Shown in pieces: positions 43 to 37,573 of a DNA stretch of 37,573 nt. The notes below the pieces were generated by a model, which searched no databases, was not told the DNA's origin, and worked only from the letters and a program-made list of their open reading frames with translations. The position numbers and the translations under genes are program-made. Numbering within the stretch: position 1 is the first letter of the stretch; each line of letters opens with the position of its first letter. The DNA is from a virus, in IMG/VR virus record IMGVR_UViG_3300031276_000009, positions 1-37,573 of that record; one strand, written 5' to 3'.

Positions 43-98
43 TGTTACCTTGTTACCATGACAATTTTAAAATCTTGACAAATGGTAACAAGGTAACA
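43..98. repeat. 17-bp perfect inverted repeat, candidate operator
   Basis: The left arm at 43-59 (TGTTACCTTGTTACCAT) is the exact reverse complement of the right arm at 82-98. Each arm is two 8-mers in tandem, so the motif GTTACC/GGTAAC occurs four times, two in each orientation. The right arm fills the spacer between a consensus -35 (75-80) and -10 (99-104), and the left arm lies just upstream of the -35. This is the usual geometry of a repressor or activator site on a regulated promoter. A terminase or partition-protein binding site is an alternative. The binding protein is not identified. Confidence 0.8.
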
Positions 99-104
99 TA
101 TAAT
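75..104 (+). promoter_or_regulatory. Consensus sigma70-type promoter of the packaging/late operon
   Basis: TTGACA at 75-80 and TATAAT at 99-104 match both consensus hexamers fully, with an 18-nt spacer. Transcription would start near 110-112, and the terminase small-subunit ATG is at 113, so the mRNA would be leaderless or nearly so. No Shine-Dalgarno is seen before 113. The spacer carries half of an inverted repeat, so the promoter is probably regulated. Confidence 0.75.
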
Positions 105-112
105 CATTAACC

Positions 113-943
113 ATGGCGGAAATCGGAAAATCACAATTAGCAAAAATATTGAAAATGACCAGGCAGTCTATCTATCGATCTATTAGTCGCGGAAAAATAA
201 TTGCAAATTCAGCTGGATTAGTTGATACTCAAAACAAAATAAATCAGCTTTGGATTTCCTCTCATGGACTATCCGAAAACGATATCCTTTCAGCTCTTGA
301 CGAAATCCACAAAAAAGAAGAAAACAAGAAAAAAAATAAACCCATATCAAACCCATTACCGAAAATCAGAGAAAATAAAAACAAAAAACAACCCGAAGTC
401 GAACCCGAAAAAATTATAAAAAATGATCAAAATATCAATCAAAAAATAGTCGAAGCAATAGAAGCTTATACAGAAAACAATCAAAAAACCAATATTGATG
501 AAATCGAGTTTGAAAACATCACAGGACTTCCGGCCCGAATGATGAAGTTAAATCTTAAAAATCTTGTAGTGAAATATGGCGGTCCCATGATGTTGAAATC
601 GTGGGCAGATATATTAGTTAAGATTATGTCCGCAAACGAAAAAGATCAAAAGATTCAGGAGCGCCGACTTGAACTCATACAAAAAGATTTTGCGATATCC
701 CGATTATTTATGTTTTTAGAAACTTTATCTTCCAGGATTTTTGACTATACGGAAAATATACCAGTTGAGATAATTGCACTTGTAAAATCAGGCGCCGATG
801 ATATTGAAATAGAAATCAAAAAAAAAATGCGTAAGGATCTTTCTATTCTTCTTAAGGACACAAAAGAAAATGTAAATAGAGAATTGGAAAATCTTAAAAC
901 AAAATATGAAAAAACTAAAAATAATGAAAACACGGAAAATTAA
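113..943 (+). CDS. Terminase small subunit, Nu1-like, with N-terminal HTH
   Basis: It probably binds the packaging site and recruits the large subunit. Residues 4-30 (IGKSQLAKILKMTRQSIYRS) form a helix-turn-helix like the winged-helix DNA-binding end of lambda Nu1. Residues 60-115 are highly charged and Lys/Glu/Asn-rich, and the C-terminal half is helical and likely used for oligomerisation and contact with the large subunit. At 276 aa it is longer than Nu1 (181 aa). The start at 113 is favoured because the HTH begins at residue 4, although no ribosome-binding site precedes it; the promoter -10 ends at 104. It lies 3 nt upstream of the large subunit, the normal order. The role rests on the HTH and position rather than on overall similarity. 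Confidence 0.75.
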   Translation: MAEIGKSQLAKILKMTRQSIYRSISRGKIIANSAGLVDTQNKINQLWISSHGLSENDILSALDEIHKKEENKKKNKPISNPLPKIRENKNKKQPEVEPEKIIKNDQNINQKIVEAIEAYTENNQKTNIDEIEFENITGLPARMMKLNLKNLVVKYGGPMMLKSWADILVKIMSANEKDQKIQERRLELIQKDFAISRLFMFLETLSSRIFDYTENIPVEIIALVKSGADDIEIEIKKKMRKDLSILLKDTKENVNRELENLKTKYEKTKNNENTEN

Positions 944-946
944 AAA

Positions 947-2929
947 ATGGTAACCAAACAGATAAACCAAGATGATATAGATTTCATAATTCAACAAATC
1001 AACTCAATTACCGACTCAAGAATATATGAATTACCGTCAAGCTGGACGGAACGAACAAGATATATACCGTCTGAATTAACTACCATGCCAGGGAAATATA
1101 GTTTTGATAAAACTCCTTTTTTTCGTGAGCCGTTAGATTGTCTTGCGCCTACCTCCCCAATTCAGGAAGTAGCTTTCATGAAAGGTGTACAAATCGGGGC
1201 CACTACCGGGATCCTCGAAAATTATCTTGCATATAATATAGGATGCGATCCCAAACCTCAACTTTATGTTTCGGCTGACAAAGAATTAGTTACAACCGGA
1301 ATGAAAACAAAAGTCGAGCGTATGATTGATACCTGCAATCTCCGTGATATGATTTTTTCACAAACTGGAAAAAAAAGATCAACGGGCGATACCCTCACAG
1401 AAAAAGAATATCCAGGGGGTTTTCTTCATGCCATCGGTGCTCAAAATCCGGGTAAATTAAGACAGATGAGTTATCCCGTAATAATGTTTGACGAGGTTGA
1501 CGGTTTTCCCGACAAACTCGGAAAAGAAGGTGATCCGATAACAATCGCAAAAAACCGCACAAACGCTTTTGCTACGAAAAGAAAAATATTATATCTATCA
1601 ACCCCCCTGATTATGCAAACATCAAAAATATACTATCTCTACAAAAAGGGTGACCAAAGAAATTTCTTTGTACCCTGCAAATACTGCGGTGAAATGCAAG
1701 TTTTGAAATGGCATGGAGTCGATGAAAATAAAAATCAATACGGTATAGTTTTTGAGCTTACAAAAAAGTTTCATCCCGATTATGATACCGTAGGCTACAA
1801 ATGCAAATATTGCGGAAAGATTATGAAAAATCATGACAAATCAATTTTCATGAATCAAGGAGAGTGGCGACCGACCGCAATATCAGAATTACCGCTTTTC
1901 CGCTCATATTGGCTTAATACATTATATTCACCTCCCGGAATGTATTCCTGGGAAAATATAGTAATAGATTGGTCCGAGTGTTGGGACTTTGAAAAAAACC
2001 GCATGAAAGATAAAGAAAAAACTAGAACCTTTTATAACCTAAAACGCGGTCTACCCTGGGAAGAAACCGGATCATCCATAAAATATGAAAAATCCGTATT
2101 ACATAGACGGTCTGGATTTTTTCTATCCTCAATACCCGAAAAAATAATGATTCGTGACGCAGGGAGTGTTGCGTTATTGCTTACATGCGCAGTGGATGTC
2201 CAGGGAGATGGATTAATCGTTCATACTATAGCATGGACCTTCGGTGGTCAATCCTGGACAGTTGATTTTTTCAAAATTGAAGGTGAAGAAATAGAGGTGG
2301 GTGATATAAAATCAAAATTATGGTCCCAACTTGATAAATATATTATTGAAAAAACATTCACTTCCGAATCGGGGAAAAATTATAAAATCATGAATACATT
2401 CATTGACTCAGGATGGGGAAAATACTCAGATATAGTCTATGAATTTTGTCGAGAGTATTCTTCTGGCGTCTACGCGATAAAAGGCGAAGAGTGGATAAAG
2501 GCCGGGTTAACATATAGAAAGTTCACAAAAGAAACTCTCGAAAAAGCTGGATTGCCATCCGCATATAATATCAACACTACAAAATTGAAAGATAGATTGT
2601 CTCGTTATATGGGTCAATTGATGTGGGATTCTGGAAAGGTACAACCGGATTGGTATCCTAATTTCCCGGAAGATTTGCATGATGATTTTTTTCGAATGTT
2701 TGAAGCAGAATATCGCGTCGAAGTTCACGATAAAGATACTGGTCAATTTAAATACATCCGATGGAAACAAACCCAAGGCGCTGACAATCACGCTCTTGAT
2801 ACGACCGTTTACAATCTCGCCTCACTTGAGCTTGTCGCCGATCGAACCTGCCGGGAAGAGCTCGGACTTAATACTTTATCTTGGACCGATTTTTGGGAAT
2901 ATGCAAAAACAGGAATATTTTATTATTAA
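947..2929 (+). CDS. Terminase large subunit, GpA family
   Basis: This is the ATP-driven DNA translocase and nuclease that packages DNA into the prohead. The N-terminal region matches the phage terminase GpA family: residues 60-95 (FREPLDCLAP...MKGVQIGATTG) hold the degenerate nucleotide-binding loop of the family, and VIMFDEVD at about 178-185 is Walker B. Two CxxC pairs (CKYCGE near 247, CKYCGK near 290) form the zinc-binding insertion common in this family. The C-terminal half (AVDVQGDG, FIDSGWG) is the RNase H-like nuclease. The length of 660 aa is typical; lambda gpA is 641. Ribosome-binding sequence before 947 is weak, so translational coupling to the small subunit is likely. Confidence 0.95.
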   Translation: MVTKQINQDDIDFIIQQINSITDSRIYELPSSWTERTRYIPSELTTMPGKYSFDKTPFFREPLDCLAPTSPIQEVAFMKGVQIGATTGILENYLAYNIGCDPKPQLYVSADKELVTTGMKTKVERMIDTCNLRDMIFSQTGKKRSTGDTLTEKEYPGGFLHAIGAQNPGKLRQMSYPVIMFDEVDGFPDKLGKEGDPITIAKNRTNAFATKRKILYLSTPLIMQTSKIYYLYKKGDQRNFFVPCKYCGEMQVLKWHGVDENKNQYGIVFELTKKFHPDYDTVGYKCKYCGKIMKNHDKSIFMNQGEWRPTAISELPLFRSYWLNTLYSPPGMYSWENIVIDWSECWDFEKNRMKDKEKTRTFYNLKRGLPWEETGSSIKYEKSVLHRRSGFFLSSIPEKIMIRDAGSVALLLTCAVDVQGDGLIVHTIAWTFGGQSWTVDFFKIEGEEIEVGDIKSKLWSQLDKYIIEKTFTSESGKNYKIMNTFIDSGWGKYSDIVYEFCREYSSGVYAIKGEEWIKAGLTYRKFTKETLEKAGLPSAYNINTTKLKDRLSRYMGQLMWDSGKVQPDWYPNFPEDLHDDFFRMFEAEYRVEVHDKDTGQFKYIRWKQTQGADNHALDTTVYNLASLELVADRTCREELGLNTLSWTDFWEYAKTGIFYY

Positions 2930-2939
2930 AAAATAATAC

Positions 2940-2969
2940 TTGACAAAATAAGAAATACGGAATAATAAT
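2940..2969 (+). promoter_or_regulatory. Candidate internal promoter before the gpW-like gene
   Basis: TTGACA at 2940-2945 is a consensus -35. With an 18-nt spacer the -10 is AATAAT (2964-2969, five of six matches). The next start codon is at 2977, so a transcript from here would have almost no leader, as at position 113. It lies in one of the few true gaps of the operon (2930-2976), and no Shine-Dalgarno is visible before 2977. Confidence 0.5.
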
Positions 2970-2976
2970 TATCATT

Positions 2977-3276
2977 ATGTCACTATTAAACGAAACGCAC
3001 AGTTCAAATACTCAAACTTCCTTGGAGTATTGGCAAGATGAACTTAAAAACTCACGAGTATTACTATTCAAAATCAACGAGGCAATAAACGCCATTTCTA
3101 CATCGAATCATCAAAGTTATACGCTTGACACCGGGCAAACTTCCCAGACCGTGACAAGAGTTAATTTACCATCGTTAATTGTACAACGAAAAGAACTGTT
3201 AAATACAATTAGACAAATAGAAATGTATCTCGGAGAAGGTAAACCAAACGTAATACAAACAAGGCCGGATTGGTGA
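2977..3276 (+). CDS. gpW-like head-tail joining protein
   Basis: A small helical protein of 99 aa. Its position between the terminase large subunit and a lambda-type portal, and its C-terminal part (LIVQRKELLNTIRQIEMYLG), resemble lambda gpW and its relatives, which complete the head after packaging. Lambda gpW is 68 aa; here an N-terminal helix of about 30 residues is extra. The stop overlaps the portal start (GTGA). The start has no ribosome-binding site but is preceded by a promoter-like element whose -10 ends 7 nt upstream. The family assignment rests mainly on gene order and predicted helices. Confidence 0.6.
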   Translation: MSLLNETHSSNTQTSLEYWQDELKNSRVLLFKINEAINAISTSNHQSYTLDTGQTSQTVTRVNLPSLIVQRKELLNTIRQIEMYLGEGKPNVIQTRPDW

Positions 3277-4991
3277 TAGATCTAAAAAATATATATATTC
3301 AAAAAGCGCAAACACTCATAAAATTAAATAAAAATGATAAAGCTCAATTATTACTGGACGCCGCTTCAAGAATCGATACTCAGAAACCTGTTACTTTTAA
3401 AAGTAAAACAAACACTCAAAAAGATCCATACGCCTATTATGTAACCGACTTACTTTCAGCTGTATGGAATGGTGAAAAGTTCCCTGGAGGATTTGGATTA
3501 ACAAAAGATTATGAGTTTGTCGACTATTATACACTCCGAAAACGGTCCGTCCAATTGTTCAAAGAGAACCCATATGCCCGAGGCATGATCCGCCGGTTAT
3601 TAAGAAATGAAATACACAAAGGCTTGAATCTTGAATCAAATACAATAACAGAGATTACACTCCTATTGGATGAAGACGCTATAGTATGGGATGAAAACTC
3701 CGAACTTAATTTCAACTTATGGTCAAACAACAAACAATTATGCGACTGGAGAAAACAAAAAACTTTTGGAGAACTTCAACATGACTGCCGTCAAACTGCT
3801 ATTACTTCCGGGGATTGCCTTGTTATCAACCATATAGATCAAAAAACAAATCTACCGTCAATCGAACTCGTAGACGGAACAAATATAAAAACTCCGTTTG
3901 GAAAACAACCCAGAAAAGGAAATAGAATAATCCATGGAGTGGAACTTGATCAATACGATAAGCATATAGCCTATTGGGTGCAGGTGAAAACCTCAACAGG
4001 ATATGAATCAAAACGCATTCCTTGTTATGGAGAAAAAAGTAAACGCAAAATAGCGTGGCTTGTGTATGGAACTGATAAGCGCCTTGATGATGTCAGGGGT
4101 GAGCCTCTTCTTGCATTAGTCTTATACATGCTCAAAGAACTTGACAGATATCGGGACTCCGAACAAAGAGCGGCGGTCCTTAATTCGATAATTCCACTTT
4201 TCATAAAAAAAACAGAATTAGGACCAGGAAGCCATCCTATAAACTCTGGAGGCATAAGACGCGGAAATATAACAACCGAAGACTTTGACGGATCCGACAA
4301 AACATATAATATATCAACTATGCTCCCCGGAACTATTCCCGACGAACTCAACAAAGGCGAAGAGCCTGTTAGTTTCAATACCCAACGACCAAATGTAAAT
4401 TTTAAAGTTTTCGAAGAGGCAATAATAAACGTCTTCGCATGGGCATGCGAGGTTCCACCCGAAATAGCTCGTCTTTTATTTCAATCTAATTTTTCAGCCT
4501 CTCGGCAAGCTAACAACGAGTTCAACGTTTACCTCTCATATATTGCGTGGAAGTTCGGAAACGACTTCTGTCAACCAATTTATGAAGAGTTTTTGACCGC
4601 CTCCATTCTCATGAATCAAATCGAAACTCCTGGTTTTCTCGATGCATATTGGTCCGGAGATTGGCGCATATTAAGGGCATGGCTTAATGCTGAGTGGACG
4701 GGAATATCCAGACCATCTGTCGACTTGTTGAAAGACGTGAACGCAGCCGACAAAGCGCTCCAACTCCGTATAACAACATTTGACCAACAAGCACGTAAAA
4801 TATCGGGAATGTCAATCAGGACAGTTATAAAAAAACTTGCCCGAGAGAATAAGTTATTTCAGCAAGTCGGATTAACATCCAGTGTTGATGAAAACAATAA
4901 CGGTGAACCTATTATAACTCAAAATATAATAAATTCTCTCATAGAAAATATATCACAATTAAGCGAAAGAATAGAGGAACTAGAAGGATAA
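3273..4991 (+). CDS. Portal protein, lambda gpB family
   Basis: It forms the dodecameric channel through which DNA enters and leaves the head. Family features are FKENPYARGMIRRLLRNEIHKG in the N-terminal third, the D-G-T-N-I-K-T-P segment near 197-204 (IELVDGTNIKTP), the DDVRGEPLLALVLYMLKELDRYRDSEQRAA helix, and ACEVPPEIARLLFQSNFSASRQANNE near the crown/stem junction. At about 572 aa it is close to lambda gpB (533). GTG at 3273 is preferred as start because it overlaps the upstream stop as GTGA; a TTG one codon earlier is possible. The C-terminal tail is helical and charged. Confidence 0.93.
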   Translation: MIDLKNIYIQKAQTLIKLNKNDKAQLLLDAASRIDTQKPVTFKSKTNTQKDPYAYYVTDLLSAVWNGEKFPGGFGLTKDYEFVDYYTLRKRSVQLFKENPYARGMIRRLLRNEIHKGLNLESNTITEITLLLDEDAIVWDENSELNFNLWSNNKQLCDWRKQKTFGELQHDCRQTAITSGDCLVINHIDQKTNLPSIELVDGTNIKTPFGKQPRKGNRIIHGVELDQYDKHIAYWVQVKTSTGYESKRIPCYGEKSKRKIAWLVYGTDKRLDDVRGEPLLALVLYMLKELDRYRDSEQRAAVLNSIIPLFIKKTELGPGSHPINSGGIRRGNITTEDFDGSDKTYNISTMLPGTIPDELNKGEEPVSFNTQRPNVNFKVFEEAIINVFAWACEVPPEIARLLFQSNFSASRQANNEFNVYLSYIAWKFGNDFCQPIYEEFLTASILMNQIETPGFLDAYWSGDWRILRAWLNAEWTGISRPSVDLLKDVNAADKALQLRITTFDQQARKISGMSIRTVIKKLARENKLFQQVGLTSSVDENNNGEPIITQNIINSLIENISQLSERIEELEG

Positions 4992-25068: not shown

Positions 25069-25776
25069 TTACATTATTTCTTTACTTCTCAATAGTTTTT
25101 TCATCTGTGAATTGTAAATATTTTGCGAATCATGCACGGGCTTTTCTATTGCCGGGAGTAACATTTTTCTGGATTTAATATTTGCGGTTCTTTGGGATAG
25201 ATTATAGAGGTGTTTTTTCTTGAATTGGACCCTGCTTTTATTTTTTTTGAATGAAGTTATCTGAAATATATTATCTGAATATCGCAATACTTTCTTTTCC
25301 CTGAAGGCGACGGCTGCCCTTGCTACGTTCATGGCTTTTTTGCTCTTGAACTTTTTCTTGAACTTGCCTTTTACCCTTTGGGATTTCAATTTTCTTAGGT
25401 AGTTTAATTTTGAAACTAATCTACGATTTGAACCGCCCCTCCTGGCGAATGGTTGAGGAATAGCCAAAGCTGAACCTCTTTTTGATCGTCTTTTACCGCC
25501 TTCTTCTTGTAATTCCAGATAGCCGGCACGCTCGAGGGCGCCAACTCTGGTTTCCATTTGTGAGATATCTTCGGTTTCTGTTTTGTCGTACCGAATGCTT
25601 GCAATCGTGAAGGTATTACGCAGAATTAGGCTATCCCTTGCATTTTTTCTGTAATTTCTACGGGAAATTGCAGCTACTATATTTAATGTGTTTTTAGCTG
25701 CCCTATTGGATGCCTTTTGAAGATCGACAAATCCCCGGTTTATTTTTTCGGTATCTATTTTTAGATTTATATTCAT
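25069..25776 (-). CDS. Basic virion morphogenesis protein, HK97 gp10-like candidate
   Basis: A 235-aa, very basic protein (runs of Lys/Arg such as KGKFKKKFKSKK). The pattern of an N-terminal amphipathic helix, AAKNTLNIVAAISRRNYRKNARDSLILRNTFTIASIRYDK, then ALERAGYLELQEEGGKRRSKRGSALAIPQPFARRGG resembles gp10-like tail completion/neck proteins, in which residues induce a GGxRR-type loop. It stands alone on the minus strand, downstream of a strong terminator, with a promoter-like TTGATT-N17-TATTAT ending 5 nt before the ATG and no good ribosome-binding site. Orientation opposite to all other virion genes is odd. Confidence 0.6.
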   Translation of the reverse strand: MNINLKIDTEKINRGFVDLQKASNRAAKNTLNIVAAISRRNYRKNARDSLILRNTFTIASIRYDKTETEDISQMETRVGALERAGYLELQEEGGKRRSKRGSALAIPQPFARRGGSNRRLVSKLNYLRKLKSQRVKGKFKKKFKSKKAMNVARAAVAFREKKVLRYSDNIFQITSFKKNKSRVQFKKKHLYNLSQRTANIKSRKMLLPAIEKPVHDSQNIYNSQMKKLLRSKEIM

Positions 25777-25781
25777 GTTTT

Positions 25782-25810
25782 ATAATATCTTATTTTTATT
25801 TATAAATCAA
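25782..25810 (-). promoter_or_regulatory. Minus-strand promoter before the gp10-like gene
   Basis: On the minus strand TTGATT (25810-25805) and TATTAT (25787-25782) are separated by 17 nt. The -10 ends 5 nt before the ATG at 25776. It lies just after the terminator at 25811-25842, so the gene would be transcribed on its own. In A+T-rich DNA such a match could be by chance. Confidence 0.4.
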
Positions 25811-25842
25811 ATAAAAAAGCCCGGCAGTGTATCACCGGGCTT
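25811..25842 (-). terminator. Rho-independent terminator of the minus-strand early operon
   Basis: On the minus strand AAGCCCGG, a 10-nt loop and CCGGGCTT form an 8-bp G+C-rich stem followed by TTTTTTATTT. The stem spans 25817-25842. It would stop transcripts that come from the early operon before they reach the gp10-like gene. Confidence 0.88.
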
Positions 25843-32952: not shown

Positions 32953-33117
32953 TTATTTTACCTCTCTTGATTCAATATGCTCCTGGATGATTATTCGCAA
33001 ATATGCACTTATTGAGCGCTCGGTTGATTTTGCAAGACTGGCGATTGTTTCGTAATCTTCCGGGCTTACTCTTGAGCTTATTGATACCGTTTCGATTTCT
33101 TTTTTATGTCTTCCCAT
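32953..33117 (-). CDS. 54-aa ribbon-helix-helix regulator
   Basis: A 54-aa protein with AAGGAGGT before ATG 33117. The sequence IETVSISSRVSPEDYETIASLAKSTERSISAYLRIIIQEHIE has the beta-strand plus two-helix plan of MetJ/Arc (CopG) type DNA-binding proteins, in which the strand inserts into the major groove. It is a candidate for binding the inverted-repeat operator at 43-98, but this is untested. It ends 1 nt before the nuclease start. Confidence 0.8.
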   Translation of the reverse strand: MGRHKKEIETVSISSRVSPEDYETIASLAKSTERSISAYLRIIIQEHIESREVK

Positions 33118-37343: not shown

Positions 37344-37344
37344 G

Positions 37345-37461
37345 TTATTTCCTTTTGCGTTTTTGTTGATATTTATCTCTTTTATTATTAAGCGAGGAAA
37401 CCAATAGGCATCCCCAAATAATCAATTCGATAACCACAATAAAAATTAAAGTTCCCTGCAT
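37345..37461 (-). CDS. 38-aa membrane peptide
   Basis: A 38-codon frame with AGGAGG (37472-37467) 5 nt before ATG 37461 and its stop 1 nt before the next ATG. Residues 3-22 are hydrophobic (GTLIFIVVIELIIWGCLLVS), followed by a basic tail (NNKRDKYQQKRKRK). Strong ribosome-binding site and exact operon spacing support a real gene. Function unknown. Confidence 0.7.
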   Translation of the reverse strand: MQGTLIFIVVIELIIWGCLLVSSLNNKRDKYQQKRKRK

Positions 37462-37512
37462 ATTCGCCTCCTATATCGAATGGCCTATATAGTTCCCCTC
37501 CCAGGGTTTTAT

Positions 37513-37573
37513 TTACGCCTTTTCCCTTGCTACCATTTCCTTCATTCTGCTTACAATTGGAGCTATATCGGCA
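37513..37573 (-). CDS. 3' end of a gene cut by the window edge
   Basis: An open frame on the minus strand enters from the right edge and stops at TAA (37515-37513), giving ADIAPIVSRMKEMVAREKA. The composition and helical nature fit a coding end, and the next gene has its own ribosome-binding site 41 nt on. Too little is present to name it. Confidence 0.55.
   Translation of the reverse strand, partial: ADIAPIVSRMKEMVAREKA

Follow-up and report, generated by a model that had tools for sequence, protein, structure and literature searches.

What purpose could be served by a perfect inverted repeat lying inside a consensus promoter, directly before a packaging gene and close to the end of a viral contig? 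The window (the whole stretch of DNA analysed here, 37,573 nucleotides) is a 37.6-kb virus contig with lambda-type head genes, including a lambda-family portal, and its tail sheath gene makes it a myovirus. Its first gene, terS (113–943, plus strand), encodes a 276-aa protein that is predicted to be the small terminase subunit from its position before terL and its fold class. The next gene, terL (947–2929, plus strand), encodes a large terminase subunit of the lambda gpA family (Pfam GpA_ATPase 1.1e-66 and GpA_nuclease 3.9e-48; PF05876, PF20454; PHROG 15, 1.1e-166), and a head-tail adaptor-like gene (2977–3276, plus strand; PHROG 118, 8.4e-06) opens the following unit. The RecE/RecT, helicase and ParA/ParB genes are on the other strand from the head genes. 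A spirochaete is the probable host, because prophage-like loci of Brachyspira and Treponema (Spirochaetota) are among the relatives found with TerL; a TerS search of genome contigs, phage and plasmid collections gave no relatives. In the reading that we favour, with a probability of roughly two in three, positions 1–112 are the left cos region of this phage, in which a cosB site would contain a leaderless promoter of terS-terL that is bound and repressed by TerS.

The preliminary description of this DNA reported a perfect 17-bp inverted repeat overlapping TTGACA-N18-TATAAT (43–59/82–98 and 75–104), which is correct to the base. The left arm (43–59, plus strand) is TGTTACCTTGTTACCAT and the right arm (82–98, minus strand) is ATGGTAACAAGGTAACA; they are 100% complementary and separated by 22 nt. 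All four GTTACC half-sites described were located, two per arm, at 44–49 and 52–57 and, on the opposite strand, at 84–89 and 92–97. Each arm had also been described as two tandem 8-mers, which holds exactly for the left arm (TTGTTACC; 42–49 and 50–57), while the right arm consists of GGTAACAA and GGTAACAt, the second 8-mer matching at 7 of 8 positions and differing in its last base. The -35 box TTGACA (75–80, plus strand) is contained in the A+T-rich stretch of 22 bp between the arms (60–81), the place taken in lambda cosB by the bend/IHF segment I1 (PMC4856287). The -10 box TATAAT (99–104, plus strand) follows after N18, and the spacer between the two boxes is exactly filled by the right arm.

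With its 17 bp, the repeat is longer than any other perfect inverted repeat of the contig; among 100 dinucleotide-shuffled versions of the window, with loops of up to 100 nt allowed, the longest such repeat reached at most 15 bp, with a mean of 5.3 bp. The window has a single exact TTGACA-N16-18-TATAAT, with 0.04 expected. GTTACC is found 9 times in the whole contig, including the four copies at the repeat, against 9.9 expected, so only its clustering at 43–98 is special; GTTACC-N0-4-GTTACC pairs are found nowhere else in the contig. Reading the repeat as an RNA hairpin was rejected, as it lies upstream of the predicted transcription start, and Rfam and tRNA scans gave no matches.

Clustered ends, homologous starts of isolate genomes and the lambda gpA-type terminase lead us to place the left cohesive end (cos) at the start of the window, with the repeat in the position of cosB. 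Among 12 close relatives (contigs with terL at least 54% identical), 9 from different metagenomes have an end 87–112 nt ahead of the terS ATG. One homologous base (ATTACTC) is the first of the window, of L003 and of L031; the ends of six further relatives are 1–25 nt away, and the more distant L064 and L066 end about 110 nt upstream of the terS ATG. Breaks at random along a genome of 37 kb would almost never produce such a shared position. Positions 1–11 (ATTACTCTACG), the putative physical left end of the virion DNA and left half of cosN, align with ATTATTCGGCG inside junction-spanning relatives, and with ATTCTGACC, the first bases of the linear, cultured Vibrio phage 367.14. That phage ends in ...GGCGTTTTGATTC, and the joined sequence TTTTGATTCTGACC is found in the circular, cultured Vibrio phage 97.13, preceded by AAAAAGGTACTG as in 367.14. 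For further isolate phages that carry this kind of terminase, the linear records (Pseudomonas phage Haddon, PY6, FCV-3, CKB-S1 and N15) start 88–127 nt before terS, and a cos-like block AAGGTACTG...CAATTAnTCGGCG is kept here in more distant, junction-spanning relatives. Contig ends and linear isolate records both point to an end of the virion DNA beside the site, ahead of terS. Relatives have a right half of cos, which is missing from the right end of the window, and therefore the contig is probably truncated there; a ParA search found no contigs running past this end. The last stretch (37344–37573) contains neither a long ORF nor the AAGGTACTG cos block of relatives.

Which protein binds the half-sites? 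The preliminary description suggested that the binder may be phage-encoded, naming the RHH protein, the small terminase and ParB as candidates. TerS has a predicted N-terminal winged helix-turn-helix at residues about 3–50 (pLDDT of the AlphaFold2 N-terminal model, 86.5), and HTH_17 matches were found in 7 of 17 homologues. Its fold matches are weak (MerR/RacA/BldC/Xis-like, and MerR/MarR-type in PDB/fold searches), Foldseek against PDB gave no match with E <0.1, with Nu1 not among the matches listed, and in sequence the TerS of the window resembles lambda Nu1 only marginally (shuffle p 0.03). Across relatives the half-site varies with the recognition helix (GTTACC, GTTTCC, GTTTAA, GTTAAC). 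At least two GTT[A/T]CC are present in 13 of 17 phages with R-Q at the start of the recognition helix, versus 1 of 23 with other helices (Fisher 2e-6, phage kinship being ignored). Helices with S-R-A go mostly with GTTAAC/GTTAAA, and GTTTAA is the usual half-site for M-A-I/V. This simple code does not cover lambda (which has GTTTCC but no R-Q), L037 and L049 (of the TTACAA type) and two Vibrio mediterranei phages. In lineage after lineage, the half-sites occupy the interval from the DNA end to terS. In L031 their spacing is one base shorter in both arms together, which favours a symmetric DNA-protein complex. The GTTACC repeats are thus best read as cosB, predicted binding sites of TerS, which is favoured as binder because the half-sites track its helix, lie between cos and terS and are absent at the RHH and ParAB genes. 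Neither ParB nor the RHH protein was retained as binder, since no GTTACC is present near 33117, 35100 or 37089. The claim of a phage-encoded binder gains support as likely, with TerS preferred among the candidates.

These data also bear on an unlikely alternative, that the repeat is the operator of another regulator (lysogeny repressor, RHH protein or ParB) silencing the late promoter in the plasmid-prophage state, its position at the DNA end being incidental. In a lysogen, a consensus promoter ahead of late genes would have to be kept silent by a repressor; the phage has ParA/ParB genes, and tandem 8-bp repeats suit ribbon-helix-helix proteins, GGTAAC repeats being found in L091 before an RHH-like-looking ORF. 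However, GTTACC pairs are restricted to 43–98, with none near the RHH, ParB and ParA genes, and in phages unrelated to each other the half-sites vary with the TerS helix and keep to the cos-terS interval. The transcription operator of the preliminary description survives in part: there is an operator-like repeat in a real promoter, but the site would first of all be a packaging site (cosB) at the cos end.

The promoter is conserved along with the repeat; loss of the repeat in relatives had been named as a possible refutation, and both are kept. Nine close relatives have a -35 box (TTGACA in 8 of 9; TTGATT in L035), N17/18, a -10 box 6–8 nt before the ATG, and no Shine-Dalgarno (SD) sequence. 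As described earlier, the ATG at 113 of the window follows 8 nt after the -10 box and has no SD before it; in this it differs from the majority of the genes in the window. In most relatives the -10 box lies 5–9 nt before the TerS ATG, and given this near-constant distance the terS mRNA is probably leaderless, with transcription expected to start at about 111–113, at or next to the ATG. Treponema relatives mostly keep the -10 box at the same distance, with a TAGTnn-like element in place of the -35 in several; in many of them the -35 is weak and the best promoter score does not exceed that of shuffled sequence. An additional factor may help at these TAGTnn-type promoters. In Vibrio phage 367.14, TTGCCC-N17-TAAACT-N6-ATG overlaps a perfect inverted repeat that is again 17 bp long but differs in sequence, and Flavobacterium phage FCV-3 has TATATTTG, which we take to be a Bacteroidota-type promoter element, about 9 nt before the annotated ATG among GTTGC repeats. 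A leader or SD precedes terS in Brachyspira and several Vibrio phages including CKB-S1, and no such promoter was found at terS in lambda (at Nu1) or N15. The leaderless form thus appears to be common, but not universal.

A second promoter of the leaderless type, TTGACA-N18-AATAAT (2940–2969, plus strand), lies 7 nt before the ATG at 2977 and has no GTTACC. The arrangement is the same in L003 and similar in L032 and L033, while L004, L029 and L030 have an SD-led inserted gene where the 2940–2976 promoter would be. As this promoter after terL has no half-sites, terS-terL may be its own unit under control of the cosB promoter. The repeat had been proposed as a switch for packaging or late genes, which fits the terS-terL pair; it is not obviously the sole driver of all late genes. 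Nor do leaderless starts seem peculiar to packaging in this phage. A possible third leaderless promoter (TTGATT-N17-TATTAT-N5-ATG; 25776–25815, minus strand) is located at a minor-tail-protein gene, on the strand opposite to the other late genes. In one relative, L036 (G006), a short, possibly leaderless ORF lies between a GTTACC-bearing promoter and an SD-led terS (1117–1251).

It is quite unlikely that the repeat is only cosB, with an overlapping promoter of minor importance and terminase expressed mainly by upstream read-through on circular DNA, as in lambda. Lambda and N15 indeed do without such a promoter at terS, and the -35 is weak in some distant relatives. Against this stand a promoter that is alone in the contig in matching the consensus exactly, the near-fixed distance from -10 to ATG without SD, and the early genes upstream, which run on the strand opposite to terS. 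We regard as very unlikely that TerS, with its MerR-like fold, activates its own promoter by binding and untwisting the spacer. The fold class is near MerR-family DNA-binding domains and the right arm is in the spacer, but close relatives have spacers of 17–18 bp with consensus hexamers, which need no activator. MerR promoter spacers are 19–20 bp. A chance repeat or contig-end assembly artefact, suggested by a position less than 100 nt from the contig end, is hardly credible, since the same sequence and end occur in independent metagenomes and the feature is internal in junction-spanning relatives.

The favoured reading, cosB with a built-in promoter, can be compared with known systems. Lambda cosB lies beside the left end and has inverted R sites (R2 opposite R3 and R1), which are bound by the winged helix-turn-helix of TerS, the DNA being bent between R3 and R2 (PMC4669245, PMC4856287). 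In the lambda sequence we find inverted arms at 53–65/108–120 and 109–133/142–166. The site of the window likewise sits beside the putative left cohesive end and directly before terS, with inverted repeated sites and an A+T-rich segment between the arms (here a DNA pattern only, at the place of the lambda bend); the left arm would be an R3-like and the right arm an R2-like TerS site of the lambda arrangement (R3-I1-R2-R1, gpNu1/gpA). A predicted N-terminal winged helix-turn-helix in TerS, a gpA-family TerL and a lambda-family portal are further likenesses. The differences are arms in which 6-bp half-sites are repeated in tandem every 8 bp (7 bp in L031), a distance from cos end to terS of about 112 bp versus 190 in lambda and 88 in N15, and the near-leaderless promoter, which lambda and N15 lack. 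With the MerR/Xis/BldC winged helix-turn-helix proteins, which bind direct repeats, the window shares the predicted fold class and tandem half-sites in each arm, but the sequence and fold matches are weak and none is significant.

In SPP1, pac overlaps the TerS promoters PL1 and PL2 (PMC6316719), and its terminase represses its own synthesis, as the title of a paper cited in that source states (Chai et al. 1997; PMC6316719). In both phages a packaging recognition site (a putative one here) lies over the terS promoter. However, SPP1 packages by headful from pac, its gene 1 is preceded by an RBS and the -35 is atypical, while the window has cos, a consensus promoter without RBS, a gpA-type terminase and inverted half-sites, so the likeness would be functional and not one of kinship; neither pac/headful packaging nor gp1 homology was found in the window, with its cos-type ends and gpA-type terminase. 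Leaderless promoters with a -10 box beside the ORF are known from the Deinococcus -10 motif and, as cited there, from lambda cI transcribed from PRM (PMC12340547). These share with the window a -10 hexamer 5–9 nt before the ATG and no SD, but here the gene is a phage terminase gene overlapped by its packaging site.

From this arrangement we infer TerS binding, cutting, the start site, leaderless translation and autorepression as follows. The winged helix-turn-helix of TerS would bind both arms, with the DNA between them probably bent, and TerS on cosB would place TerL at the nearby cosN for cutting and the start of packaging. Within cosB, a sigma70-type promoter of terS-terL would have its -35 between the arms, the right arm in its spacer and its -10 straight after, with transcription beginning no more than about 2 nt from the terS ATG to give a leaderless mRNA. 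Because the right arm fills the spacer, TerS bound there must compete with RNA polymerase. Once TerS is sufficient to fill cosB, the promoter would be covered and terminase synthesis would stop, and the filled site would also exclude RNA polymerase from the stretch on which the motor assembles. Given the SPP1 precedent and the spacer overlap, we consider it most likely that the terminase represses itself through its packaging site.

While the logic of packaging-site autorepression is known from SPP1, the version with a lambda-type cos and a leaderless promoter appears to be new; this form was not found in the open-access literature searched. The arrangement seems to recur in phages of spirochaetes, Vibrio and possibly Flavobacterium/Bacteroidota. 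We tentatively propose a widespread circuit of cos phages, in which the TerS-binding part of cos holds a leaderless terminase promoter and the packaging-start complex is its repressor; half-site and helix would have changed together several times, with the geometry (DNA end, sites, -10 and ATG within about 110–150 bp) being kept. If true, lambda-type cos packaging gains a self-limiting control known, in the literature found, only from SPP1, which would explain how terminase supply is matched to free cos sites. Dozens of TerS recognition helices paired with DNA half-sites form a natural set in which terminase DNA specificity is directly testable. A simple rule for finding cos ends in metagenome contigs also follows: they would lie some 90–150 bp ahead of terS, marked by repeated half-sites and in many cases by a -10 box next to the ATG.

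A collection-wide scan for TTGACA-GGTAAC-GGTAACA gave 11 matches, of which five are known relatives and six are without terS. In the unrelated contig L091, TTGACA and GGTAACATGGTAACA are found around 3277–3301, upstream of a 91-aa, RHH-like-looking ORF. The small RHH-like ORF of the window (32953–33117, minus strand) has no GTTACC nearby. In Treponema-type relatives (L037 1459–1600, L042 4083–4223 and L065 1831–1971), a cos-like block contains a GGGGTATACCCC palindrome (L037; partial in the others). Three Treponema-type prophages (L107, L108 and L109) carry, immediately to the left of cos, an inverted repeat resembling CTACTTTTGAAAGTAGT; in L108 it comes after a tyrosine-recombinase-like ORF, and this repeat is possibly an attachment site.
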